Shown piece by piece: positions 47,585 to 62,299 of a stretch of DNA of 64,000 bases (the first letter of the stretch is position 1; each line of letters opens with the position of its first letter). The stretch covers positions 62,001 to 126,000 of the forward strand of contig NZ_JANIBM010000005.1 of NCBI RefSeq assembly GCF_024505045.1, written 5' to 3'. The notes beneath the pieces were generated by a model. It did not search any database and was not told the DNA's origin. It saw only the letters and a list, made by a program, of their open reading frames with translations. The stretch is from Methylomonas aurea. Lineage in GTDB: Bacteria > Pseudomonadota > Gammaproteobacteria > Methylococcales > Methylomonadaceae. Position numbers and translations under genes: made by a program.

Positions 47585-49384
47585 ATGAGTATTTTGACCT
47601 GGAACGATCAGTTACTCGTCGGCATCGATAGCGTCGACAGCCAGCACCAGACTTTGGTGGAGCTGATCAATAAACTGGACGAGCTGGTGGCTGTGGGCGG
47701 CGACGGCGAGGGCCTGGTCGCCACGGTCGGCGAATTGGCGGATTACACCGCATACCACTTCCGGCACGAAGAGGAATTGATGGTTTCCGCCGGTTTCAAC
47801 CCGGAACTGTTTGCCAAGCACCGCGAAGAACACCGCGAATTCGTCGACAAAATCCGCCGGGTGCAGTTCGAGGCCGAGCGCGACCGCTCTGCGGTTTCCC
47901 GCGACTTGCTGGATTTTTTGGTCGACTGGCTGTGCCACCATATTCTGAAGACCGACAAGCTGATGGCGATCAGTTTGAACAGGGGCGTGGACGCCGCTCA
48001 GATCGAAATCGACCGCCACGAACATCTGGACGTGCTGCATAGCAACCTTTATTCTGCGTTGCGGGAAAGCGAGGAGCGATTCAAAGATTTGGCGGACAAC
48101 TTGCCGGCGCTGATCTGGATCACCAACGCCAAGCACATGCCGATATTTTGCAACCGGTTCTGGTTTAAAACCTTCGGCTTGCAGCGTAACGAACTGGAAA
48201 AACAGCGCTGGATGAGCGTGATCCATCCCGACGACCGGGCGCTGGTCATGGTGGCGTACAGCAAAGCGGCCGGGGAAAAGACCAAGTTAAAGATCGAGTA
48301 CCGCCTGCTCGGTCCGGAAAGCAAGATCACCTGGATCCTGGAAACCGCGGCGCCCCGGATTCGCCGCAATGGCGAGTTCGCCGGCTTGATGGGCTGCGGC
48401 ATGGACATCACGTTGCGTAAAAAAGCCGAAGCCGCATTGTCCAGGCTGAATCAGCAACTGGAGGAACAGGTCGCCGCCCGTACCCGGGAACTGACCGCCG
48501 CCAACCAAACCCTGGAATCGGAGAAAAACCAGCAAATCGAGCTCAACCGGCAATTGCAGGAAGCGCAGGCGCATTTGGTTCAGGCTGAGAAAATGGCGTC
48601 GATCGGCCAATTGGCGGCAGGGGTCGCTCACGAAATCAACAACCCGCTCGGCTATATTTATTCCAACTTGAATACCTTGCAGGAATATATCGACCAGTTG
48701 GGAGTCGCGGCCACTCTGGCCGAGCGCTTGGCTGAAAGTTTACCGACGGGCCACCCGGCCGGCGCCGAGTTCTGCGCCTTTAAAAATCGGGTAGACCTGG
48801 ACTTCATCAAAGCCGATGCGGCCGACTTGGTCAGAGAATCGCTGGAAGGTGCCACCCGCGCCAAAAATATCGTCCAGGATTTACGCGATTTTTCCCGGAT
48901 CGACAAACAGGAACAAGCCGTGTTCGATCTTGAAGCCGGCTTGGATGCCACGTTGAATATCGTCAACAACGAGCTGAAGTACAAGGCGGAAGTGGTCAAG
49001 CAATACGGCGGGATCAAGCCCTTTGCCTGCGTCGGCGCCCAGTTGAATCAGGTCTTCATGAATCTACTGGTCAACGCCGCCCAAGCCATTCCGGATTTCG
49101 GCAAAATTACCATAAGCACCGGCTATCGCGATGCCGACTGGGTATTTGTCGAGATCGCCGATACCGGCAGCGGCATGAGCGAAGACGTCAAAGCCAAGAT
49201 CTTCGATCCGTTTTTTACGACCAAGCCGGTGGGCAAGGGCACCGGTCTGGGTCTGTCGCTATCGTATAAAATCATCAAGGACCATCAGGGCTACATCCAG
49301 GTCGATTCGGTTCCGGGCCAAGGCACGGTTTTCCGAATTTTGTTGCCGCTACCTACCGCCACATTAGCGCCGAAACTGCCATGA
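47585..49384 (+). CDS. Hemerythrin-PAS histidine kinase
   Basis: A 599-residue soluble sensor kinase. Residues 1-135 are a bacteriohemerythrin: [33 protein letters not shown] and [12 protein letters not shown] supply the di-iron ligands that bind oxygen. A PAS domain (residues 155-285, [17 protein letters not shown]) and a coiled coil follow. The kinase core has [15 protein letters not shown] (phospho-His near residue 348) and an HATPase domain with N, G1 and G2 boxes ([29 protein letters not shown]). The next gene, a response regulator, overlaps by ATGA. Oxygen or redox sensing is inferred from the hemerythrin. Confidence 0.92.
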
Positions 49385-50685
49385 ACGAGAATACCGAAGC
49401 CCCGCCCGCGCAACTGCTGTTCGTCGATGACGAACCGAACGTGCTGAAAGCGTTGAAACGCTTGTTCCGTTCGGCGGAATACAGCGTACATCTGGCCGAA
49501 AGCGGTGCCTCCGGCCTGGATATCCTGCAAACGCAGCCGATAGATTTGATCATTTCCGATATGCGCATGCCGCAGATGGATGGTGCCGAATTTTTGAGCC
49601 GGGCTGCGGAAAATTATCCGGACACAGTGCGGATTTTGCTGACCGGCTATGCCGATATCGAATCGACCATTGCCGCAGTCAACAACGGCCGGATTTACAG
49701 CTATTGCAGCAAGCCCTGGGAGGACAACGAGCTGAGAATTCTGGTCAATAACGCGCTGGAACAAAAGCGCCTGCGCCAGGAACGCCAGCGCCTGTACGAT
49801 ATCGTCCAGCGCCAGAACCTGGAATTGAAGGAACTCAATTCCAGCCTCGAGGAAAAAGTCGAAAAGCGTACCGAGCAATTGAAAAAGTCGCTGCACGTGA
49901 TCGAACAGGCCAACGAATCGTTGAAAAGGCAATATAACGAGTCGGTCAAAGCCTTCGCCAAGATCATCGAAATGCGCCCCGGCATCAAGAGCGGCCACGC
50001 CAAATACATCGCCGAACATGCCAAGGAAGTGGCACAGCGCCTGGGTTTGCCGCCGGCGGAAGTCAGAAACGTGGTGTTCGCCGGATTGCTGTTGCAAATC
50101 GGCAAAATGAGTCTGCCGGATAGCCTGCTGACCATGCCGCATTTTGCGATGAACAGCCAGCAACGCAAACGCTTTTTGAACCATGCCCAGGAAGGCTACC
50201 AGTTGCTGGCCGGAATCGAGCCGCTACACCAAGCCGCTGAGTTGGTGGGCCACCAATACGAATACTACGACGGTTCCGGCTACCCGGCCGGGCTTTCGGG
50301 TCCGGCAATACCGCTAGGCAGCCGGATTTTAACGGTGATTCGTGAATACGTGACCATGCTCGACGGCAGTATCACCGGCAGTACGATGAGCACCGATCAG
50401 GTCAAAACCCGGCTACTGTCGAAAAGAGGCACAAATTACGATCCGCAGGTGGTCGACACTTTTCTGGCCTTACTCGAAGAAACTAAGTGCAACGACGAGC
50501 GGCCGGTGATCGAAATATCCTGGACTCAGCTGCAAGCCGGCATGGAGGCCGCGGAAGTGTTGTGTAACGACGTGCTTTACCTGAAAGACCAGATCCTGAC
50601 CGACAAACACGTCGAAGACATACTCGGTCTGCGCAAGCACGGCAAAAATCTGGTGTTGCGGGTCAGGCTGGGGCAGGGACACTGA
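49381..50685 (+). CDS. Response regulator with degenerate HD-GYP output
   Basis: A 434-residue protein: receiver domain (residues 10-125; phospho-Asp60 in LIISDMRMPQ), coiled coil (130-190), then an RpfG-like HD-GYP domain. The catalytic HD pair of LLHDIGK is replaced by LLLQIGK (Leu238, Gln239) and the HHE motif by GHQYE, while DGSGYPAGL is kept. Metal binding and c-di-GMP hydrolysis are therefore unlikely; it may bind c-di-GMP or a partner. It is translationally coupled to the hemerythrin kinase and is its obvious partner. Confidence 0.88.
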   Translation: MNENTEAPPAQLLFVDDEPNVLKALKRLFRSAEYSVHLAESGASGLDILQTQPIDLIISDMRMPQMDGAEFLSRAAENYPDTVRILLTGYADIESTIAAVNNGRIYSYCSKPWEDNELRILVNNALEQKRLRQERQRLYDIVQRQNLELKELNSSLEEKVEKRTEQLKKSLHVIEQANESLKRQYNESVKAFAKIIEMRPGIKSGHAKYIAEHAKEVAQRLGLPPAEVRNVVFAGLLLQIGKMSLPDSLLTMPHFAMNSQQRKRFLNHAQEGYQLLAGIEPLHQAAELVGHQYEYYDGSGYPAGLSGPAIPLGSRILTVIREYVTMLDGSITGSTMSTDQVKTRLLSKRGTNYDPQVVDTFLALLEETKCNDERPVIEISWTQLQAGMEAAEVLCNDVLYLKDQILTDKHVEDILGLRKHGKNLVLRVRLGQGH

Positions 50686-50704
50686 GGGCTGTCCTCGGCC
50701 GGCA

Positions 50705-51244
50705 TTACTCCAGATCGGTGTCGTCCAGAATAATCGAACCGTCTGCGGCCCAATTGACTTTGGTAATCCCCGGTTCCTCGGCTTCCAGCGCGCGAATCAG
50801 CGCATCCTTTTCCGCCAGCAATTTTTGCTGGGCCCGCACCTGGTCTGCCAGCACTCGGTTTTCCAGCAGCATGCGTTTATGGGCCAAGCCGCTTTCGACG
50901 ACGTGGGCGATCTCCAGATTGCTCCAGGGCTTGTTGATGAAACGGAATACCTCGGCGTCGTTGATCGCATGCTGCGCGCCTTCCAGATCGGCAAAGCCGG
51001 TCAATACCACCCTTACTGCATCCGGTTGCAAGCGTTTGAACAGGATCAGGAAGTCGATACCGTTGATACCCGGCATCCGGTAGTCGGAAATCACCAGATC
51101 GAACATCTGCTGCTCTGCAATCGAGAGCGCTTCCTCGGCACTTTCCGCGGTTACCGTGTCATAGCCCTTCAGCAAGCGGGCGAGGGCTTTGAGTACGTTG
51201 GGTTCGTCGTCGACGATCAAAATTTTAGCGGGACTTGCATTCAT
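50705..51244 (-). CDS. Response regulator with short coiled-coil tail
   Basis: A 179-residue protein from MNASPAKILIVDDEPN; a start 66 bp upstream is less likely. The receiver domain (LVISDYRMPGINGIDF; VLTGFADLEGA; FINKPWSNLEI) closely resembles the receiver of the neighbouring degenerate HD-GYP regulator, suggesting duplication. After residue 125 there is only a coiled coil and an acidic tail, no DNA-binding domain. It lies 96 bp after the REC-kinase gene on the same strand, so the two may act together. Confidence 0.86.
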   Translation of the reverse strand: MNASPAKILIVDDEPNVLKALARLLKGYDTVTAESAEEALSIAEQQMFDLVISDYRMPGINGIDFLILFKRLQPDAVRVVLTGFADLEGAQHAINDAEVFRFINKPWSNLEIAHVVESGLAHKRMLLENRVLADQVRAQQKLLAEKDALIRALEAEEPGITKVNWAADGSIILDDTDLE

Positions 51245-51340
51245 AGCGGGCGGCCATCGGAAATCTGTCGTTAATGAGAGATAGTCTGACACGTAACGCG
51301 CAGCGTGCAAGTTTCCATGCTCGAACGGCCGGTATCCGGG

Positions 51341-52621
51341 TCAGACGGGTTGCGGGCGCGCGATCGGCAGGCACACCCGAAACCGGCTGCCCTGGCCCGG
51401 CTCGCTTTCCACTTCAATGCGGCCGCCGTGCTTGGCGACGATATTCCGCGAAATGGATAAGCCCAGGCCGGTACCCTTGCCGACCGGTTTCGTCGTGAAA
51501 AATGGTTCGAACAAACGGCTGATATGCTCGGGGGCGATGCCTTTGCCGTTGTCGCCGATTTCAACCCAGATCTCGTTCTCCCGGCAACCGGTGCGCACGG
51601 TAATAACCCCTTGGGTTTCGATGGCTTGGCCGGCGTTGATCAACAAATTCATGAACACTTGGTTCAACTGCGACGGCAGGCAATAGATCTGCGGAATCTC
51701 GCCGTACTCTTTGACGATTTTGCAGTGGTATTTCAGTTCGTTGCAGATGATGTTCAGCGTCGAATCCAGACCTTTGTGCAGATCGCTCAATTCCAACGTA
51801 TCGGTGCCGGCGTGGGCGAAATCCTTCAAATCCTGGACGATAGCGCGCACCCGCGCCAGGCCTTCCCGCGATTCGGCGATTAATTGCGGAATGTCCTCGC
51901 GCAAATATGCCATTTGTTTTTTTTCCAGCAGCGTCTGCAACTCGTTGCGGGGCGGTTCCGCGATGGCGCCGGCCGCCAACGCGCCGGAATAGGCGTCCAA
52001 AATGCAAAACAGGTCTGCCAGGTAGCTGGACAGGGTGTTCAGATTGGAATTGACGAAACCGACCGGATTGTTGATTTCATGGGCGATGCCGGCCGCCAAC
52101 TGGCCGATTGCGGCCAGCTTTTCCGACTGCAACAACTGCATGTGTACCCACTGGTTTTCCTTGTGCCGGCGTTCGACTTCCGCTTCCAAAGTCGCATTCT
52201 GGTTGCGCAGCCAGTCGCGGGCTTTTTTCAGTTCGAGTTGGGTTCTAATGCGCGCCAGCAGAATCGACAAATGGCAGGGCTTGTAGATGTAATCGACCGC
52301 GCCGAGTGCCAATCCGCGCTCTTCCTCCAAATCCGAGGTCAGCGCCGTGACGAATATCACCGGGATGTCGCGGGTATCGGCTCGGGCTTTCAATTCCGCC
52401 AGCACTTGGTAACCATCCATACCCGGCATCATGACGTCCAGCAGAATCAAATCCGGTTTGGCCGGACTGTTGACCAGTTTCAGCGCGCTTTCGCCGCCGG
52501 TAGCCACCAACACTTGGTAGTAACGCGTAAGAAACTCGCCGAAGACCGATAGATTGATCGGTTCGTCGTCCACCAGCAAAATGGTGGAACGGTGGTGCTC
52601 GTCGGGTGTGACTGAATCCAT
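51341..52621 (-). CDS. Receiver-histidine kinase hybrid
   Basis: A 426-residue protein with an N-terminal receiver (STILLVDDEPINLSVFGEF; phospho-Asp in LILLDVMMPGMDGYQVL; YIYKPCHLSIL) joined by a helix to a kinase core. The core has IAHEINNPVGFVNSNLNTL with the phospho-histidine and an HATPase domain ending [14 protein letters not shown]. The core is close to that of the hemerythrin kinase, so duplication is likely. No input domain other than REC is seen, so it probably takes phosphate from another kinase. The start at MDSVTPDEHH is preferred to one 45 bp upstream. Confidence 0.88.
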   Translation of the reverse strand: MDSVTPDEHHRSTILLVDDEPINLSVFGEFLTRYYQVLVATGGESALKLVNSPAKPDLILLDVMMPGMDGYQVLAELKARADTRDIPVIFVTALTSDLEEERGLALGAVDYIYKPCHLSILLARIRTQLELKKARDWLRNQNATLEAEVERRHKENQWVHMQLLQSEKLAAIGQLAAGIAHEINNPVGFVNSNLNTLSSYLADLFCILDAYSGALAAGAIAEPPRNELQTLLEKKQMAYLREDIPQLIAESREGLARVRAIVQDLKDFAHAGTDTLELSDLHKGLDSTLNIICNELKYHCKIVKEYGEIPQIYCLPSQLNQVFMNLLINAGQAIETQGVITVRTGCRENEIWVEIGDNGKGIAPEHISRLFEPFFTTKPVGKGTGLGLSISRNIVAKHGGRIEVESEPGQGSRFRVCLPIARPQPV

Positions 52622-52984
52622 TGGCTTCCAATTGAATCGGCGCATCCGGCACGCCACCGCTACCAAGAATCGGAATGGGCGGCCTTTCGGTGCATTGCTA
52701 AAATTGAGTCATTATCCGGATAGTTTAGGCTGCGCGCGGAGTTAAGCCAACCGGGCCTGGCCGGTCGGAATATTGCATGTTCTGATGAAAGCCGTGTCAG
52801 ACGCGATACCTTCTCCGCGCTGGCGCCGCCGCTCCGACGAGTTGGTCTTGTATTCCATGGGCAATTTATCTGCTTAAATAGTTTTAGGGGGCGAATCAAA
52901 TGGTTTTAACGCAAGTCCGGCCGCGGCCGAGACCTTATCCCGGCGGCCGCATGCCCGACCGGCCGGCATGCCTGCGGTTGCGCA
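52622..52984. promoter_or_regulatory. Divergent intergenic region upstream of the corrinoid operon
   Basis: This 363-bp region separates the divergent REC-kinase gene from the corrinoid operon. It must hold promoters for both. An AT-rich patch near 52860-52885 (including CTGCTTAAATAG) is the best -10 candidate for the corrinoid operon. No cobalamin riboswitch box or clear operator was recognised, and the first gene lacks a good ribosome-binding site. Confidence 0.4.
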
Positions 52985-54610
52985 ATGAACGCCGATGACC
53001 GGTCGGCGGCAGCCGATCCTCTGGTCAGCGTCGTTTGCGGCGACCGGATGCGGACGGTGCCGGCCGATCCGCACACTTCCGTGCGCCACGCCCTGGATAC
53101 CGGCGATTTGCGGGTTCGGGCCGCCTGTGGCGGCTTGGGAACCTGCGGCGCCTGCCTGATCACGGTTCTGGAAGGCGAATTCAATCCGCCCACGTTGGCC
53201 GAGCGGCAAAAATTATTGCCGGAAGACCTGGCGCAGGGCCGGCGCCTGGCTTGCCAGTTGTACCCGCGCGGCCCGGCCAAACTGTACCTGGAACATCCAG
53301 CACCGGATTCGGCATGGAAAAGCCCGGACAGTGCCTGCCGCGTGCACGCCGCTGGCAATCCGGCCATGGGAGACTATCCTTTCGGCGTTGCCGTCGATCT
53401 CGGTACCTCCCACATTCGTTTGTCGCTGTGGCAGCGGCAAACCGGCCGCCGGATTGGCAGTCGCATCGGTGTCAATCCCCAGCTTGCCCATGGCGCCGAC
53501 GTCTTGACCCGGCTGGACGCCGAGCGCCTGGCCGCGGCAGAGAGCCTGATATTGGCCGGCGAGGCGCGCCAGGCTGTTATCGAAGGCGTTCGCGACATCC
53601 TCAGTCGCGATTTGGGCGAAATTACCCCCATTCTGCAGCAAGTCGGCAAAGTGTTGATCGTCGGCAATACCGCAATGCTGAGTTTGATTTGCGGCGCCGG
53701 CGACGACAGCCTTTACGATCCGGCGAACTGGCAAGCGTCGATTGCCTGCGTCCCGGACGACCTCGCCGCCTGGCGTGACAACTGGCGCATGCCGCATGCC
53801 GACATCGAGATCGTTCAGCCGCTAGCCGGCTTTGTCGGGTCGGACCTGCTTGCCGCGTTGATTGCCGCCGACATCACCGCACTGCCCGCACCGGCGATGC
53901 TGGCGGATTTCGGTACCAATACCGAAATTGCGTTGTGGGACGGCGGCCGGATATGGGCTACTTCGGTACCGGGTGGCCCGGCGTTCGAAGGCGTCGGCAT
54001 CCGTAACGGTATCGGCGCCGAGGCTGGGGCAATCCAACGCGTCGAGCTTGACGAGGGTTTTCTGCGGCTACAGACCATAGGCGCTGCTTCCGCCCGCGGT
54101 TTCTGCGGCAGCGGCTTTATCGATGCGGTCGCGTTATTGCTGGCGGACGGTGTGATAAAGCCGTCCGGCCGTTTCGCCGCGCCGCAACCGGCAACGGGTT
54201 TGCGCTTAGAGCCGGACAATCCGCGTACTGCGATTTTTGCGAGCGACATCGACATTTTTCAGCGCGCCAAAGCCTCGACCGCGGCCGCCATGGCACAATT
54301 AGCCAAGTTTTCCGGGATCGATTTGGCGAGCCTGAACAGCTTTTGGATCTGCGGCAGCTTCGGTCGGCATTTGCAGGTATCCAGCGCCATCCGCCTCGGC
54401 TTGCTGCCGGACTTGAGCCGGGGACGTTTCCAGATGTTGGCCGATGCCAGTCTGACCGGTTGCGAAAGACTGCTGTTGGCGCCGGACCCTGGTAAATTTA
54501 CAACCGGAATCGCTCAGCGGATCCGCGTCGTCAATCTCGGTGGGGTTGTCGAGTACGAAAACCGCTTCATCGACCACTTGCGCCTGCAACCCTTCGGCGT
54601 TACGGAGTAG
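52985..54610 (+). CDS. Reductive activator of corrinoid proteins (ferredoxin-ASKHA, RACE/RamA-like, DUF4445)
   Basis: A 541-residue protein. Residues 12-100 are a [2Fe-2S] ferredoxin with Cys48, Cys54, Cys57 and Cys90 (ACGGLGTCGACL ... RRLACQ). The rest is the ASKHA ATPase fold of DUF4445: AVDLGTSHIRLSLW near residue 136, IVGNTAMLSL, LADFGTNTEIALWDGG near residue 307 and FWICGSFGRHL near residue 450. Such proteins use ATP to return inactive Co(II) corrinoid to Co(I). The corrinoid protein it should serve starts 5 bp downstream. First gene of a six-gene run; start chosen as the first ATG, although no Shine-Dalgarno sequence is apparent. Confidence 0.9.
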   Translation: MNADDRSAAADPLVSVVCGDRMRTVPADPHTSVRHALDTGDLRVRAACGGLGTCGACLITVLEGEFNPPTLAERQKLLPEDLAQGRRLACQLYPRGPAKLYLEHPAPDSAWKSPDSACRVHAAGNPAMGDYPFGVAVDLGTSHIRLSLWQRQTGRRIGSRIGVNPQLAHGADVLTRLDAERLAAAESLILAGEARQAVIEGVRDILSRDLGEITPILQQVGKVLIVGNTAMLSLICGAGDDSLYDPANWQASIACVPDDLAAWRDNWRMPHADIEIVQPLAGFVGSDLLAALIAADITALPAPAMLADFGTNTEIALWDGGRIWATSVPGGPAFEGVGIRNGIGAEAGAIQRVELDEGFLRLQTIGAASARGFCGSGFIDAVALLLADGVIKPSGRFAAPQPATGLRLEPDNPRTAIFASDIDIFQRAKASTAAAMAQLAKFSGIDLASLNSFWICGSFGRHLQVSSAIRLGLLPDLSRGRFQMLADASLTGCERLLLAPDPGKFTTGIAQRIRVVNLGGVVEYENRFIDHLRLQPFGVTE

Positions 54611-54615
54611 ACACG

Positions 54616-55281
54616 ATGCTTGAGGCCTACATTCAAGCTTACAACGACGCGGTGTTCGAAACCGACAAGCAAACCGCGCTAAACGTGGTTAACCAAGCGC
54701 TGCAAAACGGCTTCAGCGCCGAAGACATTGTGTTCAAACTGGTGATTCCCGCCGTCGAACAAATGATGGCCTTCATCGAACGAGATCCCGACGCCAATCT
54801 GGCTCAACACTTCATGACCGCGCAGATCGCCGCCGACGTCACCGAAAAAATGCTGGAAAAATTCAGCAAACCGCCGGAAATGGTAGGTAGGGTCGTGATC
54901 GGCGCCGCCTACGGCGATCTGCATTCGCTCGGCAAACGTATCGTCTCCGGCTGCCTGAAGTCATTGATGGTCGATGTCGTCGATCTCGGTTGCAACGTCA
55001 GTGCCGAGCGGTTCGTCGATGCCGCGGTGGCCGAACAGGCTCAGGTCATTGCGATTTCGGCGATGATGGTGCACACCGCAATCGGCGAAAACGGTAGCCT
55101 GAAGGTGCGGGCGCTGTTGAAGGAGCGCGGCTTGGAAGACCGGATCAAATTGGCCGTGGGCGGCGCGCCTTACCGTTTCGATCCGGAGTTATATCTGAAG
55201 GTCGGCGCCGACGCCTGGGCTGCCGACGGCGTCAATGCCGCCAAAGCCATCGTCGAATTGATCCGCGAGGTGAAACCGTGA
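54616..55281 (+). CDS. Methyl-carrier corrinoid protein (MtaC/MtbC-like)
   Basis: A 221-residue two-domain corrinoid protein. The N-terminal cap (residues 1-90) is a helical bundle (NVVNQALQNGFSAEDIVFKLVIPA). The C-terminal Rossmann domain binds cobalamin base-off through His103 in GDLHSLGKRIV, which satisfies DxHxxG, with later ISAMMVHTAIGE and AVGGAPYRFD motifs. Such proteins ferry methyl groups between a substrate methyltransferase and an acceptor methyltransferase. Here the activator lies upstream and the acceptor-like gene overlaps by 4 bp, but no substrate methyltransferase is present. Confidence 0.92.
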   Translation: MLEAYIQAYNDAVFETDKQTALNVVNQALQNGFSAEDIVFKLVIPAVEQMMAFIERDPDANLAQHFMTAQIAADVTEKMLEKFSKPPEMVGRVVIGAAYGDLHSLGKRIVSGCLKSLMVDVVDLGCNVSAERFVDAAVAEQAQVIAISAMMVHTAIGENGSLKVRALLKERGLEDRIKLAVGGAPYRFDPELYLKVGADAWAADGVNAAKAIVELIREVKP

Positions 55282-56306
55282 CCCCGCTGCAAATACTGGC
55301 CGCCGCCCAGGACGGTTCGCCGGCGCCGCGGATTCCGGTATTCTGCAACTTGCTGGACCAAGGCGCCCGCGAAGTGGGATTACCGCCGCAGCGTTATTTC
55401 TCCGACGGCGCCGCGGTCGCCGAAGCCCAATTACGTATGCAAAAGCGTTACGGTCACGACAACCTCTGGAGTTTGCACTATGTCGGCAAAGAGGCCGAGA
55501 TTTTGGGTTGCCGGGAAATTTTGTTCGCCGCCGACGGCACGCCGAACGTTGCCGACCTTGTGATCAAAAGCCTCGACGACATCGCAAAGTTCGAAATTCC
55601 GGCGGATATCACCCAAACCGAAGCCTGGCAGCCGATCGGCGAATGCCTGTCGATATTGGCCGGCGAAGTCGGCGCCACCCATCCGATTTGCGCTTACGCC
55701 ACGGCATCCACCACGCTGCCCGCCATCCTGATGGGTATGGATAAATGGATGGAACTGTTTTTGCTCGGTCCGTTCGATCTGCGCGACGAATTGCTGCGCA
55801 AATGTTCCGATTTTTTCCGCCAGCAAATCGCTGCCCTGCGCGCCGCCGGCGCCAACGTACTGGTCTATTCCTCCCCGTTCGGTTCGCCGTATTTCGTCGG
55901 CCGCCGTCAAGTCGAAACCGGCGTGCTGCCGTGGATGCGGCGTGATCTGGCGCCGGGCGGCAGCGACGGCGTGGTCTATTACTGCGGCACGGCGCCATTC
56001 AACGAAGTCATCGATTTGGTGTTCGCCGAATTGGGGATCACGACGTACTATCTCGGGCCGCAGGCGGACCTGGCCGAAGCGAAGTCGCTGATCGGCGATC
56101 GCGGCCTGTGTTGCGGTACGATCGACGATATCCGCATGATCCATTGGACGCCGGAACAGACTCGGGCCGAAGTTAAACGCATCATCGAAATCGGAAAACC
56201 CGGCGGCTTTTTTTTATTCGGTACCGGCGTGATGCCGTTAGCGATACCGGAAGCCAATATCCGGGAGATGCTGGCAGCGGCCTTCGAATACGGGAGCTGG
56301 CAATGA
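55278..56306 (+). CDS. UroD/MtaA-family corrinoid methyltransferase-like protein with altered zinc site
   Basis: A 342-residue TIM-barrel protein of the uroporphyrinogen decarboxylase superfamily, closest in character to MtaA/MtbA/CmuA methyl-acceptor methyltransferases. In those enzymes zinc is held by His-x-Cys and a distant Cys. Here the first site reads Tyr234-Tyr235-Cys236 (VVYYCGTAP) and the last reads GTGVMP (Val318), so two of three ligands seem replaced. GLCCGTIDD at residues 276-284 supplies other cysteines. It may therefore bind the methylated corrinoid without normal thiol methylation. Both its ends overlap neighbours by 4 bp. Confidence 0.8.
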   Translation: MTPLQILAAAQDGSPAPRIPVFCNLLDQGAREVGLPPQRYFSDGAAVAEAQLRMQKRYGHDNLWSLHYVGKEAEILGCREILFAADGTPNVADLVIKSLDDIAKFEIPADITQTEAWQPIGECLSILAGEVGATHPICAYATASTTLPAILMGMDKWMELFLLGPFDLRDELLRKCSDFFRQQIAALRAAGANVLVYSSPFGSPYFVGRRQVETGVLPWMRRDLAPGGSDGVVYYCGTAPFNEVIDLVFAELGITTYYLGPQADLAEAKSLIGDRGLCCGTIDDIRMIHWTPEQTRAEVKRIIEIGKPGGFFLFGTGVMPLAIPEANIREMLAAAFEYGSWQ

Positions 56307-56923
56307 AAGCGTTTACCTTGAAACCGGAGCCGCAACCTACCTTAACCCTGGTCGGCTGCGGTATCCTGCGTAAGGAAGTGGACCGCCTGATCGAAAAAAA
56401 CCATTGGACCGTGCATACCCATTATTTGGATTCGGCGCTGCACAACTATCTGAATCGCTTGGCGACCGAATTGAACCAAGCCCTGGAAGAGCGCGAGAAA
56501 CTGGGCGAGAAAACCGTGGTGTTCTACGGCAGTTGCCATCCGTTGATGGAAAGTTATCTGGAAGCCCACCATACCTGCCGCACCCAAGGCCAAAACTGCA
56601 TCGTCATGCTGCTGGGTTACGAGCGCTTCATGCAGGAATTAGAAAACGGCGCCTATTTTCTGTTGGAGGACTGGGCCTTGACTTGGGAACCGATGATTAC
56701 CGCCTGCTTCGGCAACAACAGCACCGTCGTCCGCGAGATTTTCCACAGCAGCCATAAGTATATTCTGGCACTGCGCACGCCCTGCAATGGGGACTTTACC
56801 CGCGCCGCAGAGGCGGCGGCGCGCTTCGTCGATTTGCCGCTACGCTGGCAGGATGTCGACCTGGATCACCTGGAATCGGTGCTGGCCGATGCCATTCAAC
56901 GCCGTTCGGCCTCCGAGCTGTAA
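56303..56923 (+). CDS. DUF1638 protein of the corrinoid operon
   Basis: A 206-residue cytoplasmic protein that matches DUF1638: the [18 protein letters not shown] opening, [27 protein letters not shown] and the [22 protein letters not shown] stretch. The family occurs with corrinoid methyltransferase genes in methanogens and acetogens; its function is unknown. Conserved Cys and His residues (VGCG, YGSCH) hint at metal or corrinoid contact. It overlaps the MtaA-like gene by 4 bp and its TAA shares a base with the kinase ATG (TAATG). Confidence 0.84.
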
Positions 56924-58551
56924 TGTCCGCGCAATCCAGCCAGCAAGCGTTACTGGAACGAATCGAGCATTTGGAAGCCCGGTTGCGCAAGGTGTCGGAA
57001 GAAAAAGCCAACCTGTATCTGATTCTGCACATGGTGGAATTGCTGAATCCGATCGCCGGTGTCGACAGCATGCTGGAGAACCTGATGATGGCGTTGTGCG
57101 GCAGCCTGGGCGGCAGCAACGTCGAAATCTATTACTTGGAAGATGGTGAAATCCAGTACGCCAATTTGGCCGGCGACCGCAGTAGGCTCGCCAAAATCGA
57201 CGATCCGCTCGTTGCTCAGGTATTTGAGCAGCGCCGCTTCGTCGAGCAGCCCAGCGACTCGGCGCACACCCTGCTGCGCGGTTCGACGCCGGCCGTGGCC
57301 TGTACCTGGGTCATGCCGTTGCTGGCCGGTAAGGAACTGGTCGGGGTGGTCAAAATGACCGACATGCTCGGTAGTGCGCAAATGCGCGACTATCTGGCAC
57401 CTTTTTTTTCGCACATGGCCTTGATTTTGAGCAACGAGATCAAGACCCGGATCGCCGAAGCGGCGAACAAGGCCAAAAGCAATTTTTTAGCAACGATGTC
57501 TCACGAAATCCGTACTCCATTGAACGGCATCCTCGGCATGGCGCAATTGCTGACGCTGCCCGACTGCTCGGCGGAAAAACACCGCGAGTGCGCCCGTACC
57601 ATCCTGTCTTCCGGCCAAACCCTGTTGACTCTGCTCAACGACGTGCTCGACCTGTCCAAGATCGAAGCCAATCGCCTGGAATTAAACCATGCGCCGGTAT
57701 CTCCGGCCCATATTCTGCGGGAAGTCCATTCGTTGTTCAGCGAAAGTGCCCGCCAAAAAAATCTCACGCTGGCCACGGCCTGGACCGGCCCGGCGGAACA
57801 ATGCTATCTGCTCGACCAGATCCGGTTACGGCAAATGCTATCCAATCTGGTCAGCAACGCCGTCAAATTCAGTGACTCCGGCGAAATCGTATTGCTGGGG
57901 CGGGAACTCGGCCGCGGTCATTGCGGCGCTTGCTTGGAATTTTCGGTGACGGACAACGGCGTCGGTATCAGCGAGGAACAACAGCGACTGCTGTTCAAGC
58001 CGTTCAGCCAGGTCGATGCTGGCTCGACCCGGCGCTATGCCGGAACGGGGCTGGGGCTTTCCATAGTACGCCGTTTTGCCGAGTTGATGGGCGGCGAAGC
58101 CGGCGTGGACAGCGTGGTCGGCAAGGGTTCGCGTTTTTGGTTCCGGGTAGAGGGCGAGCAGGCCGACTGTCCGCTGCTTGCGAACGGAACCAACGGCAAA
58201 TCTGAGCTGCAGGAAGTCTCCCGGCTTGTCGCGGCACCGGCAGCGAATGAGCAGTTTAGCCCGGAAGCTCCGCCGCAATCGGCTATACCGTCCGCCGAAA
58301 TCGCGTTTCTGCATGGCCTTCCGCAGATTGGCGCGGAACTGGACGAACTGGAGCGGCTATTGGCGAAAAACATGTTCCAGGCGGTCAGCCAGTACAAGCT
58401 ACTGCAAGCCGAACTGGCGCCGCCGGTTGTGGCGGAACGTTTTGCCGCGGTGGGCCAAGCGGTCAACGACATGAAATTCGAACAAGCCTTGGCCCAACTG
58501 CGGTTGTTTCGCGCTGCGCTAATCCCGGATGCAGGCGAAGCGCATGGTTAA
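56923..58551 (+). CDS. Cytoplasmic GAF-type histidine kinase
   Basis: A 542-residue kinase with no membrane segment. Residues 1-40 are a coiled coil and 45-170 a GAF-like sensor ([38 protein letters not shown]). The kinase core has phospho-His194 in [20 protein letters not shown] and an HATPase with [21 protein letters not shown] and [12 protein letters not shown]. After a low-complexity linker the last 80 residues form a helical HPt-like module ([23 protein letters not shown]), with no obvious phosphorylatable histidine. Translation is coupled to DUF1638 (TAATG) and to the GGDEF-EAL gene (8-bp overlap), so its input is probably the corrinoid module. Confidence 0.92.
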
Positions 58552-60673
58552 AGATAACCAAAAGATACTCGCCATCGACGACATGCCGACTAATCTGGCG
58601 CTGCTGGGTTTGGCGTTACAGGACGACTATCAGATTCAGATCGCCACCTCCGGCGCGAAGGGCCTGGAGTTGGCGAGCGACGATCCGCCGGATCTGATTC
58701 TGTTGGACATCATGATGCCTGACATGGACGGCTACGAAACCTGCCGCCGGCTGAAACTCGATCCGCGGTTGCGCGATATTCCGGTGGTGTTCGTCACCGC
58801 GATGAACGACGCCGAGGCCGAGACCGAAGGTTTTGCGCTGGGTGCCGCCGATTATCTGACCAAACCGCTCAATATCGAAATCGCCCGGCTGCGGATTCGC
58901 AACCTGTTGGAACGCGAACGGCTCCGCCGCGAATTGCAGCGGCGCGAGGCCGATTTACGGCTGGCCGCCAGCGTATTCGCCCATACTCACGACAGCGTGG
59001 TGATAACCGATGCCGAAAACCGGATCATCGATGTAAATAACGCTTTTTGCCGGATGACCGGTTACGCTAAGGAAGAAGTGCTGGGCAAAAATCCCAGTGT
59101 GCTGAAATCCGGTCGGCAATCGGCCGAATTTTACGAAAATATGTGGTGTTCGCTGCTGGGCAGCGGCTATTGGAACGGCGAATTGTGGAACCGGCGCAAG
59201 AGCGGCGAGGTATACGCCGCCCTGACTTCGATTTCGGTGGTACGCGACGAACAGGGAAGGGTGCATCACTACATCGGGCTTTCTGCCGATATTACGCCGC
59301 TAAAGAACCATGAGCTCGACCTGGAACGCATCGCCCATTTCGATCCGTTGACCGGTATACCCAACCGAGTCCTACTGGCCGATCGTCTGAACCAGGCCCT
59401 GGCGCATACCCGCCGCGCCAACAACACGATGGCGGTATGCTATCTGGATCTGGACGGTTTCAAACCGATCAACGACCAATTCGGCCACGATATCGGCGAC
59501 CAATTGCTGATCGAGATTTCGCAACGTATCAAGGACTGTTTGCGTGCCGGCGACACGGTCGCTCGAATCGGCGGCGACGAATTCGTGTTGCTGTTGTTGG
59601 ATTTTAATGCGGCGCACGAGTGCCAGGCGGTATTGCAGCGCATGCTGGACCGGGTGGCGGAATCGGCGTCGATCGGCGGCCACTGCGTCAGTGTTTCGGC
59701 CAGCCTCGGTTACACGCTGTTTCCGGCCGACCCGGCCGACACCGAAACCCTGCTGCGCCATGCCGACCAAGCCATGTACTCCGCGAAGCAGGGCGGCAAA
59801 AACCGTTACCACTTGTTCGATCGCGAGCAAGACAGGCTCAGCACGGTACGCGGAGGCAATTTGGCGCGCATCGGCTCGGCGTTGCGCAACGGCGAATTGG
59901 TGTTGTATTTCCAACCCAAAGTCAATATGCGCAGCGGCCGGATATTGGGTGCCGAAGCCTTGATCCGTTGGCGCCATCCCGAACGCGGCCTGTTGGTTCC
60001 GGCGGCATTTCTGCCGGATATCGAAGGCTCCGATTTGGCTATCGCCGTCGGCAACTGGGTATTGCGCCAAGCTTTGGCGCATGCCGCCGGTTGGCAAGCC
60101 GCGGGCCTGAAAATCCCGCTCAGCGTCAACGTCGCACCGCGGCACTTGTTGGATGCTGATTTCGTCGCCACATTGCAAACCGGCTTTGCCCAATATCCAC
60201 AACTGGCGCCGAATTGCTTGGAGCTGGAGATTCTGGAAACCGCTGCGCTGGAAGACATCGGCCGCGTCACCGGCGTCATGCGGGAATGCCAGAAACTGGG
60301 TGTCAGCTTTGCCCTCGACGATTTCGGTACCGGTTATTCGTCATTGACTTATCTGAAAGCCCTGCCGGCCGAAACCCTGAAAATCGATCAATCCTTTATC
60401 CGCGACATCTTGGCCGATCCGGACGATTTGGCCATCGTTACCGGCATCATCAATTTGAGCGCCGCGTTCAAGCGGCAAGTGGTGGCGGAGGGCGTGGAAA
60501 GCGCCGCTCATGGCTCATTGCTGCTGGAACTGGGTTGCGACAACGCCCAGGGTTACGGCATTGCTCGGCCAATGCCGGCCGAACAACTGCCGGCTTGGAT
60601 CTCCGCTTGGTTGCCGCATCGGGAGTGGCGGCAGGGCTCCGGCCAGCGAACATTGCCGCTACGGATGGGGTAA
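58544..60673 (+). CDS. REC-PAS-GGDEF-EAL c-di-GMP enzyme
   Basis: A 709-residue response regulator from the ATG inside the kinase gene (a start 15 bp upstream is possible). The receiver has phospho-Asp55 in [19 protein letters not shown] domain spans about residues 135-250. GGDEF is intact ([11 protein letters not shown], near residue 343), as is [16 protein letters not shown] near 470, [35 protein letters not shown] and EGVES. It could therefore make or degrade c-di-GMP. As the last gene of the operon and overlapping the kinase, it is the likely output of the corrinoid-linked pathway. Confidence 0.93.
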
Positions 60674-61393: not shown

Positions 61394-62299
61394 GTGCCGT
61401 TATCCAAACTAAACAATCCAGTTTCTTGGTTCTGGAGAAGCCTCAAAGAACATACGAAGGCATTTCCAAAGATGTCAGACCTCAGCAATTTGGCGGATAC
61501 CGCGCGTATTCGCCATATACAGTGGTTGCACGAGAGCAGCGATTTCGGAAACCCAGACGATCTGGCGGGCGAGTTGATGGCGGCCAAAGTCCGCAAGGAG
61601 TGTTTTAAACTCAATAGCGAAGCCATCGTAAAAATGCGCAAAAACCCCTACTATTACTACTTGGTTGCGCGGACTAAGTTCTACGACCAGTTGCTCCTTG
61701 ATTCGGTCGCGACAGGCATTCGCCGCGTGTTGATAGTTGGAGCGGGGTTTGATACTCGTTTGTATCGCTTTGGAGACTACCTCGCCAAGCATGGCATTGA
61801 AGTTGCGGAATCTGATCAACCCGATGCGGCGGCGATAAAGCAAAAGCTCGCTAAAAAGCTTCCCCATTCCGAACGAGTTCGCTATCTGACGATAGATCTT
61901 AATAAGCAGGGTACGTGGAATGACTTGCTGGATTGGCTCGATACCAACAACACTGATCCCACGCTGATTTTTGCCGAAGGCGTAAGCCCATACGTGGAAA
62001 GTTCCAAGTTTTTAAATTTCTTGGCCGAGATTGCAGCCCGTATGCCCAGCGGAAGTTGGCTGGCTTATGATTTCAAGCGAGTCGGAGCTCGCGACGATTT
62101 TGGAATAACAGAGGAAGTGTTATCGCCTTTTCGCCTGCCATTGGATAAGGAATTCATAGAGGATAAACACGCTAGCCTCGGTTTTACGCATGTCTCGCTT
62201 ACTTCCTCGCTAGAGTTGATGGAGGCCTTTATTCCTAGTTGGAACGAGGAAGTATCTCCATTGTTTGATGAAGACGCGTTACTTAAAGTCAGGCGCTGA
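61394..62299 (+). CDS. Class I SAM methyltransferase of the leucine carboxyl methyltransferase family
   Basis: A 301-residue protein of the LCM/TIGR00027 type. Family motifs: ADTARIRHIQW near residue 34, the SAM-binding VLIVGAGFDTRLYRF near residue 114, the acidic ESDQPDAAAIKQ near residue 138, and LIFAEGVSPYV near residue 193. A GTG start at 61394 with AAGGAAAA upstream is chosen; an ATG at 61472 (MSDLSNLADTA) is an alternative. Substrate is unknown; family members methylate O or carboxyl groups in secondary or surface metabolites. It opens the AT-richer glycan region. Confidence 0.85.
   Translation: MPLSKLNNPVSWFWRSLKEHTKAFPKMSDLSNLADTARIRHIQWLHESSDFGNPDDLAGELMAAKVRKECFKLNSEAIVKMRKNPYYYYLVARTKFYDQLLLDSVATGIRRVLIVGAGFDTRLYRFGDYLAKHGIEVAESDQPDAAAIKQKLAKKLPHSERVRYLTIDLNKQGTWNDLLDWLDTNNTDPTLIFAEGVSPYVESSKFLNFLAEIAARMPSGSWLAYDFKRVGARDDFGITEEVLSPFRLPLDKEFIEDKHASLGFTHVSLTSSLELMEAFIPSWNEEVSPLFDEDALLKVRR

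Follow-up and report, generated by a model that had tools for sequence, protein, structure and literature searches.

What brings the genes of a corrinoid methyl-transfer system into one operon with a histidine kinase and a cyclic di-GMP (c-di-GMP) enzyme? The question is raised by six genes of Methylomonas aurea, located in a 64,000-nucleotide stretch of contig NZ_JANIBM010000005.1 (positions 62,001 to 126,000), which we call the window. The genome itself has 4.8 Mb and is 99.98% complete. Our analysis suggests, with slightly better than even confidence, that the corrinoid methyl-transfer complex encoded here acts as the input of a trans-acting sensor made of several proteins. Since this gene set is found next to signalling proteins in many phyla, sensing through B12 is more probable than the use of methylated compounds as food. 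To our knowledge, no signalling input is known that is a corrinoid methyl-transfer complex. The six genes and the N-terminal domain of the kinase are as follows, in window coordinates.

52985..54610, + strand: RACE-type corrinoid activator, 541 amino acids (aa); Pfam 2Fe-2S Fer2, RACo middle and RACo C-terminal/ASKHA domains, with the Fer2 cysteine pattern.
54616..55281, + strand: MtaC/MtbC-like corrinoid protein, 221 aa; Pfam B12-binding domain, with the cobalt-ligand motif D101-x-H103-x-x-G106.
55278..56306, + strand: MtaA/UROD-like protein, 342 aa, GTG start; Pfam URO-D and alignment to the structure 4ay7.
56303..56923, + strand: DUF1638 protein, 206 aa; Pfam.
56923..58551, + strand: soluble histidine kinase, 542 aa; Pfam HisKA and HATPase_c, sub-threshold GAF, and sequence motifs.
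56923..57456, + strand: divergent GAF-like domain, residues 1–178 of the kinase; GAF alignment A5 and a structure model.
58529..60673, or from the ATG at 58544, + strand: REC-PAS-GGDEF-EAL response regulator, 714 aa; Pfam, with GGDEF and EAL motifs.

All six genes lie on one strand, as the original prediction had said, and this is the + strand. The first junction has a 5-bp gap, and at the next three the genes overlap by 4, 4 and 1 bp. The overlap of kinase and regulator is 8 bp, as had also been said, when counted from the second ATG (58544), and 23 bp from the first (58529). Each predicted family was confirmed by Pfam, and the activator carries all three parts of a RACE protein (2Fe-2S, RACo middle and C-terminal). 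The kinase had been called soluble, which fits, since it contains no strongly hydrophobic stretch (best 19-residue hydrophobicity mean, 1.53). Its motifs are HEIRTP at 194, NLVSNA at 308, DNGVG at 344 and GTGLG at 374. The HisKA histidine, the N and G boxes of the ATPase and the REC domain of a two-component pair are present by sequence, and phosphotransfer is predicted. A scan for promoters and terminators gave counts no higher than in shuffled sequences.

Our search of 201 genomes of the same family found DUF1638 in 41 genomes, at 46 places. Besides the window, the surroundings of 40 and of two further places were read, while G037, G093 and G176 were left out (G and L numbers denote genomes and loci). 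Two of the 40, L032 and L041, have another corrinoid type, and our family counts refer to the remaining 38 cassettes, some of which are cut by contig ends. A histidine kinase directly follows DUF1638 in 37 of the 38. The exception, L053, has no MtaA-like gene, and a Cache-HAMP-PAS kinase overlaps the start of its RACE gene. The next gene after the kinase encodes a c-di-GMP response regulator in 25 cassettes (18 GGDEF-EAL, 4 HD-GYP and 3 GGDEF only). The original prediction thus withstood the first of its own refuting conditions, a lack of conservation of kinase and c-di-GMP genes beside the corrinoid genes. Since the order is kept in relatives, the six-gene arrangement goes beyond chance. That the coupling of the corrinoid module to signalling is no accident of one genome is well supported, as judged from sequence.

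When named contigs were scanned with the MtaA-like alignment, 125 relatives came up, of which the best 80 were kept; these are 52–76% identical to the window protein. A corrinoid gene was found in all 80 of these loci, DUF1638 in 71 and RACE in 54. By contig title the 80 loci span ten phyla, and the hosts include Rhodocyclaceae, Magnetococcales, Desulfuromonadia, Nitrospirota, Chloroflexota and Verrucomicrobiota, although many of the loci are bins, whose taxonomic titles may be wrong. The idea of a methanotroph-specific system therefore has to be given up, as the cassette occurs in many other groups as well. A quick tree of the MtaA-like proteins was built from 79 of the 80 loci and the window (L152, whose gene is split, was left out; 26 of 77 forks are weak). 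In this tree the rows closest to the window are mostly Methylomonas and Methylococcaceae. Another methanotroph with the cassette is Methylotuvimicrobium buryatense 5G (L097). The MtaA-like genes of L136 and L137, which come from an alphaproteobacterial and a Bacteroidales bin, are nearly identical, which points to recent transfer or mis-binning.

Residues 1–178 of the kinase score below the Pfam GAF cut-offs. Their structure model (pLDDT 88) has its best match in the Protein Data Bank (PDB) at E 3.4e-6, with TM-scores near 0.6, and the domain is accordingly modelled as a GAF fold. GAF domains of the window type were found in the kinase of 33 of the 38 family cassettes. Among the 80 named-contig loci, 75 gave a profile match anywhere in the locus, where the GAF follows the corrinoid and MtaA-like genes; in 74 it is encoded on the strand of the MtaA-like gene and no more than 2.7 kb away from it. 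Nine of the ten phyla are represented by the 75 loci; the tenth is Myxococcota, whose one locus (L132) has no GAF. In two further loci without a GAF, L108 and L161, the contig edge falls inside or just after DUF1638; L146, L161 and L165, all without it, form one clade in the MtaA-like tree.

We also searched two samples of genomes picked without regard to the cassette, a phylum sample of 299 and a class sample of 369. They are not independent trials, because they share genomes and contain related species. Both profiles used, A1 and A5, derive from cassette members, and with their cut-offs of E 1e-15 and 1e-10 any weaker GAF relatives would stay hidden. In the phylum sample the GAF profile matched 11 genomes and the MtaA-like profile 17. 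Those 11 are among the 17 and have MtaA-like matches at E below 1e-160, while the other six matched only at E 1e-32 to 1e-45 and their neighbours fall outside this comparison. All 11 GAFs are encoded on the strand of the close MtaA-like match and start 612–664 bp downstream of it. Within the class sample, nine genomes matched the MtaA-like profile, four of them closely, and the GAF was found in exactly those four. These profile searches suggest that the GAF subfamily occurs almost only in genomes with the corrinoid module, and nearly always beside it.

GAF domains often bind small ligands. In the main rival explanation, the operon would be one of enzymes with a local regulator, in which the corrinoid proteins would demethylate a compound that the GAF domain itself binds to control the response, a mode of action suggested for the PocR kinase in the mec cassette. 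We consider this unlikely, yet it is the chief rival because the mec cassette and a locus in G134 show that enzyme operons can carry kinases. The accessible part of the mec report describes a PocR kinase and a transcriptional regulator beside the corrinoid genes (PMC9768040), and in G134 a 1954-aa kinase and a REC protein adjoin a true MtaB locus. A PocR sensor kinase was tried as a candidate for our operon and rejected, as PocR is absent from the 24 families matched at E 0.001 by 42 GAF-bearing proteins.

The outputs of these proteins also speak against a local regulator. HATPase_c was found in 34 of the 42 GAF-bearing proteins scanned. In some loci, however, the GAF is joined to c-di-GMP domains: to GGDEF-EAL in L115, L120 and L123, to HD-GYP in L149 and to a partial GGDEF in L131. 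Where the GAF shares its chain with a c-di-GMP enzyme, control of the operon's own transcription is hard to argue, and the c-di-GMP enzymes that follow the kinase in 25 of the 38 family cassettes count in the same direction. PAS repeats often follow the GAF, and the proteins of L143, L147 and L151 end after PAS domains. On the quick tree at least five changes between kinase and c-di-GMP output are needed, that of L131 among them. A constant input with interchangeable outputs resembles a sensory module. The c-di-GMP output that had been predicted is seen in the 25 cassettes, but it is only one of several outputs.

DUF1638 itself is linked to signalling in a second, distant lineage. In 38 of the 38 proteins aligned, Cys19, Cys78, His79 and Cys99 are invariant. 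The model of the window protein (pLDDT 93.8) had no PDB match reaching E 0.001, so no function can be assigned from the fold. Elsewhere, DUF1638 has been linked to B12 reactivation in the accessible parts of two reports (PMC5764234; PMC12478193). Distant MtaA homologues at eight loci (L177–L184) likewise come after a corrinoid gene; they have His at the first zinc position and no Cys at the other two. Six of these loci were found through MtaA, and in five of the six DUF1638 lies close to the N-terminus of the protein encoded next; the sixth, L182, reaches a contig edge. L183 and L184 were found through DUF1638 and give no independent evidence of the association, but their fusion to a kinase does. 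Five of the seven DUF1638-headed proteins score above the Pfam cut-off of 27 and two below it (L177, 25.3; L178, 22.6). All seven match A6, our DUF1638 profile, with E-values that relate to the nine-sequence set only. Six carry kinase domains and that of L181 carries PAS. DUF1638 is thus built into signalling proteins here, as it heads kinase and PAS proteins. Taken with the exchanged outputs, these fusions favour the earlier claim that the corrinoid module is a sensor, whose signal would run to the kinase and then to c-di-GMP and whose input may be a methylated compound or redox. The claim is thus partly supported, while a special tie to methanotrophs did not hold.

If the operon were catabolic, a working MtaA site and a substrate methyltransferase would be of interest. 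The zinc ligands of MtaA, which we take to be the HxC...C set of 4ay7, were located in our proteins by alignment. In the window protein the first His is replaced by Tyr234 and the last Cys by Thr316, whereas Cys236 is retained. Across 81 MtaA-like proteins, Tyr234 is present in 81, position 316 is T, N or S in 81 and the middle Cys is kept in 77. Two of the three ligands are therefore gone in every protein, so these do not have the full zinc site of MtaA/CmuA. The window protein scores 56.4 bits against NCBIfam TIGR01463, below the curated cut-off of 235.4. The original prediction had noted that no substrate methyltransferase is present here, and would have been refuted by a co-regulated MtaB or MttB; the M. 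aurea genome has no match of either, MtmB not having been searched for. Within the family, MttB was found in none of the 201 genomes and MtaB in one, G134, a 63%-complete bin whose MtaB locus is separate. This locus (L041, 134–11425) contains REC, a weak corrinoid match, MtaB, a weak RACE match, DUF1638 and the 1954-aa kinase.

Neighbouring genes do not supply a catabolic enzyme either. When the 535 unlabelled open reading frames (ORFs; at least 130 aa) of the 80 loci were clustered, no family was present in more than 11 loci, and the most frequent was a chemoreceptor (MCP; 11 of 80). Eight clusters occurred in at least four loci, and the seven of these that were scanned (MCP, DUF815, LysR, TonB receptor, CheR, a PhnD-type binding protein and CheW) included no corrinoid or C1 catabolic enzyme. 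The lack of such neighbours, the rarity of MtaB and MttB and the lost ligands all tell against an enzyme operon. In L132 (11803–18992) and L141 (16227–17165) the cassette has the PhnD-type phosphonate-binding protein nearby, and L132 also has the chemotaxis genes CheR, CheW and MCP.

The cobalt-ligand motif, in contrast to the zinc site, is retained. DxHxxG is kept in all 81 corrinoid proteins, and corrinoid binding is therefore likely. The window protein fits a cap plus Rossmann protein of the MtaC/MtbC type; its best matches among solved structures, 1y80 and 7xcn, are near full-length, and it also matches 8j2y, but it scores 96.4 bits against NCBIfam TIGR02370, below the curated 215.3. In three loci the corrinoid and MtaA-like proteins share one open frame (L116, 9056–11047; L128, 9224–11029; L165, 9149–11026), which suggests that the two would make a complex. 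The presence of RACE implies Co(I) cycling, as in methyl transfer.

The match to 8j2y brings in another candidate, light sensing through photolysis of alkyl-cobalamin as in CarH or photocobilins; according to the accessible part of the source, 8j2y belongs to a diguanylate cyclase that carries a fused B12 photoreceptor (PMC10979010). This candidate was rejected, as the W-x9/10-EH signature, taken from literature seen in excerpt, is absent: W-x9-[ED]H occurs in none of the 81 corrinoid proteins, and only one of the 81 has a Trp anywhere within the first 90 columns. Such a sensor would also have no use for RACE and an MtaA-like protein as partners, and we regard it as highly improbable. Because RACE implies Co(I) cycling and the light signature is found in 0 of 81, the methyl or redox state of cobalt is a likelier signal than light.

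A further explanation is that the module serves reactivation or methyl transfer for methionine synthesis, as suggested for RamA-like and DUF1638 proteins in Phaeobacter, and that its signalling neighbours are there by chance. In its favour, RamA-like and DUF1638 mutants of P. inhibens were rescued by methionine, as stated in the part of the report at hand (PMC5764234). The window RACE is the sole PF14574 match in the M. aurea genome, whose other B12-binding proteins are a MetH, a radical-SAM protein and a MerR-B12-binding regulator. The MetH is full, including an activation domain, so RACE is dispensable for it, and a methionine-synthase helper was rejected for this reason. The cassette also has no homocysteine or pterin domain and its signalling genes are conserved, which leaves this explanation with hardly any probability. 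The MerR-B12-binding regulator (G000:C20:50234; L186, 3710–4612) has a CarH-like domain make-up.

RACE could also belong to a redox or oxygen sensor, in which RACE and oxygen would set the oxidation state of cobalt, Co(I), Co(II) or Co(III), and this state would itself be the signal, with no methyl donor and with the MtaA-like protein as a structural part. Several of the hosts are known from redox gradients, and the loss of two zinc ligands agrees with such a role, as does RACE in 54 of the 80 loci. For the 26 loci without a nearby RACE, 20 genomes were searched, and 14 have a PF14574 gene elsewhere, which possibly serves other enzymes. Many residues of the MtaA-like protein, however, are near-invariant across the 81, more than a scaffold seems to need, and RACE was not found in six of the 20 genomes, which may be incomplete. 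We consider a pure redox sensor quite unlikely.

Several observations weigh against a corrinoid-based sensor, in addition to the kinases of mec and of the MtaB locus in G134. Its occurrence in 41 of 201 family genomes makes the system patchy and dispensable. Other kinase genes intervene in the cassettes of L139 and L144, and L132, L146 and L165 have no GAF despite continuing sequence. In the class sample, G413 has one extra GAF protein away from the cassette, and in G316 the GAF protein and the cassette are on different contigs. The GAF also seems replaceable, since the kinases of L035, L037, L070 and L071 have PAS instead of the window-type domain. Finally, Co(I) chemistry may not be general, because RACE is patchy, being unfound in the six genomes, and the PF14574 matches elsewhere may be unrelated.

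Gene order, the dedicated GAF, swapped outputs, DUF1638 fusions, the intact DxHxxG motif, the altered MtaA site and the finding of no MttB and hardly any MtaB are derived from the sequences. The direction of signalling, the protein contact, the methyl chemistry and the ligand are what we infer in the following scheme for the corrinoid-based sensor. RACE, perhaps aided by DUF1638, would reduce the corrinoid cobalt to Co(I). The MtaA-like protein, without a thiol-activating zinc site, would bind a small methylated (or alkylated) compound, whose methyl group would pass to the cobalt. The methyl-cobalt state, or its absence, may be read through contact with the kinase GAF, and DUF1638 would take part in this contact or lie close to it. 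Phosphorylation of the REC-PAS-GGDEF-EAL protein by the kinase would then change c-di-GMP. Covalent methylation of cobalt as the working principle is our proposal. More tentatively, and with rather less than even confidence, the scheme may extend to a multi-phylum signalling class, in which the complex itself would be the receptor. Sensing of a methylated compound would consist in the methylation of cobalt; a dedicated GAF or DUF1638 domain would read whether the separate corrinoid protein carries methyl-cobalt, and would be coupled to kinases, c-di-GMP cyclases/phosphodiesterases or HD-GYP proteins.

If this is true, sensing of one-carbon compounds would be covalent and reset through reduction. 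So far, corrinoid methyltransferases are known for their role in metabolism, and B12 for its use as a cofactor in light sensing; a complex as the receptor would be a new kind of input, found in about ten phyla judging from contig titles. DUF1638 would gain a testable role, and the corrinoid genes in aerobes where MttB and MtaB are not found would be explained. In methanotrophs and sediment bacteria, decisions made through c-di-GMP would be tied to one-carbon compounds (or the cobalt redox state). No description of such a system was found in the literature searched, where three papers name DUF1638; this absence is weak evidence, as preprints and most subscription papers lie outside that literature.

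Just upstream of the operon (window 47585–52666), more signalling genes are grouped together. They comprise a kinase-like ORF of 599 aa, a REC-HD-GYP protein of the NosR family NF053512 (518.8 bits vs 400), a REC protein on its own and a divergent REC-kinase. Downstream, at 61394–62299, lies a gene for an LCM-family (leucine carboxyl methyltransferase) protein.

Compared with known systems, the cassette is like MtaABC and MtgABC/MttBC with RamA/RACE in its corrinoid protein, MtaA-family protein and reductive activator, which are homologous. Unlike them, its operon has no substrate methyltransferase, two MtaA zinc ligands are lost and conserved signalling proteins are found instead. The mec cassette for dichloromethane likewise combines a corrinoid protein and an MtaA/CmuA-family protein with a two-component system, as far as the accessible part of PMC9768040 tells. 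Its kinase is of the PocR type and its regulator acts on transcription, and it contains additional MTI/MTII methyltransferases, whereas a different GAF and kinase or c-di-GMP outputs are found here. The split methionine synthase of P. inhibens also ties DUF1638 and a RamA-like protein to a corrinoid protein, in the portion of PMC5764234 available; our cassette differs in having signalling proteins and no homocysteine or pterin domains. Photocobilins and CarH share with it a B12-binding domain as signalling input, and there a diguanylate cyclase fusion exists, according to the available part of PMC10979010. The light signature is, however, found in 0 of 81 proteins here, and the corrinoid protein is mostly a separate chain accompanied by MtaA-like, RACE and DUF1638 proteins.

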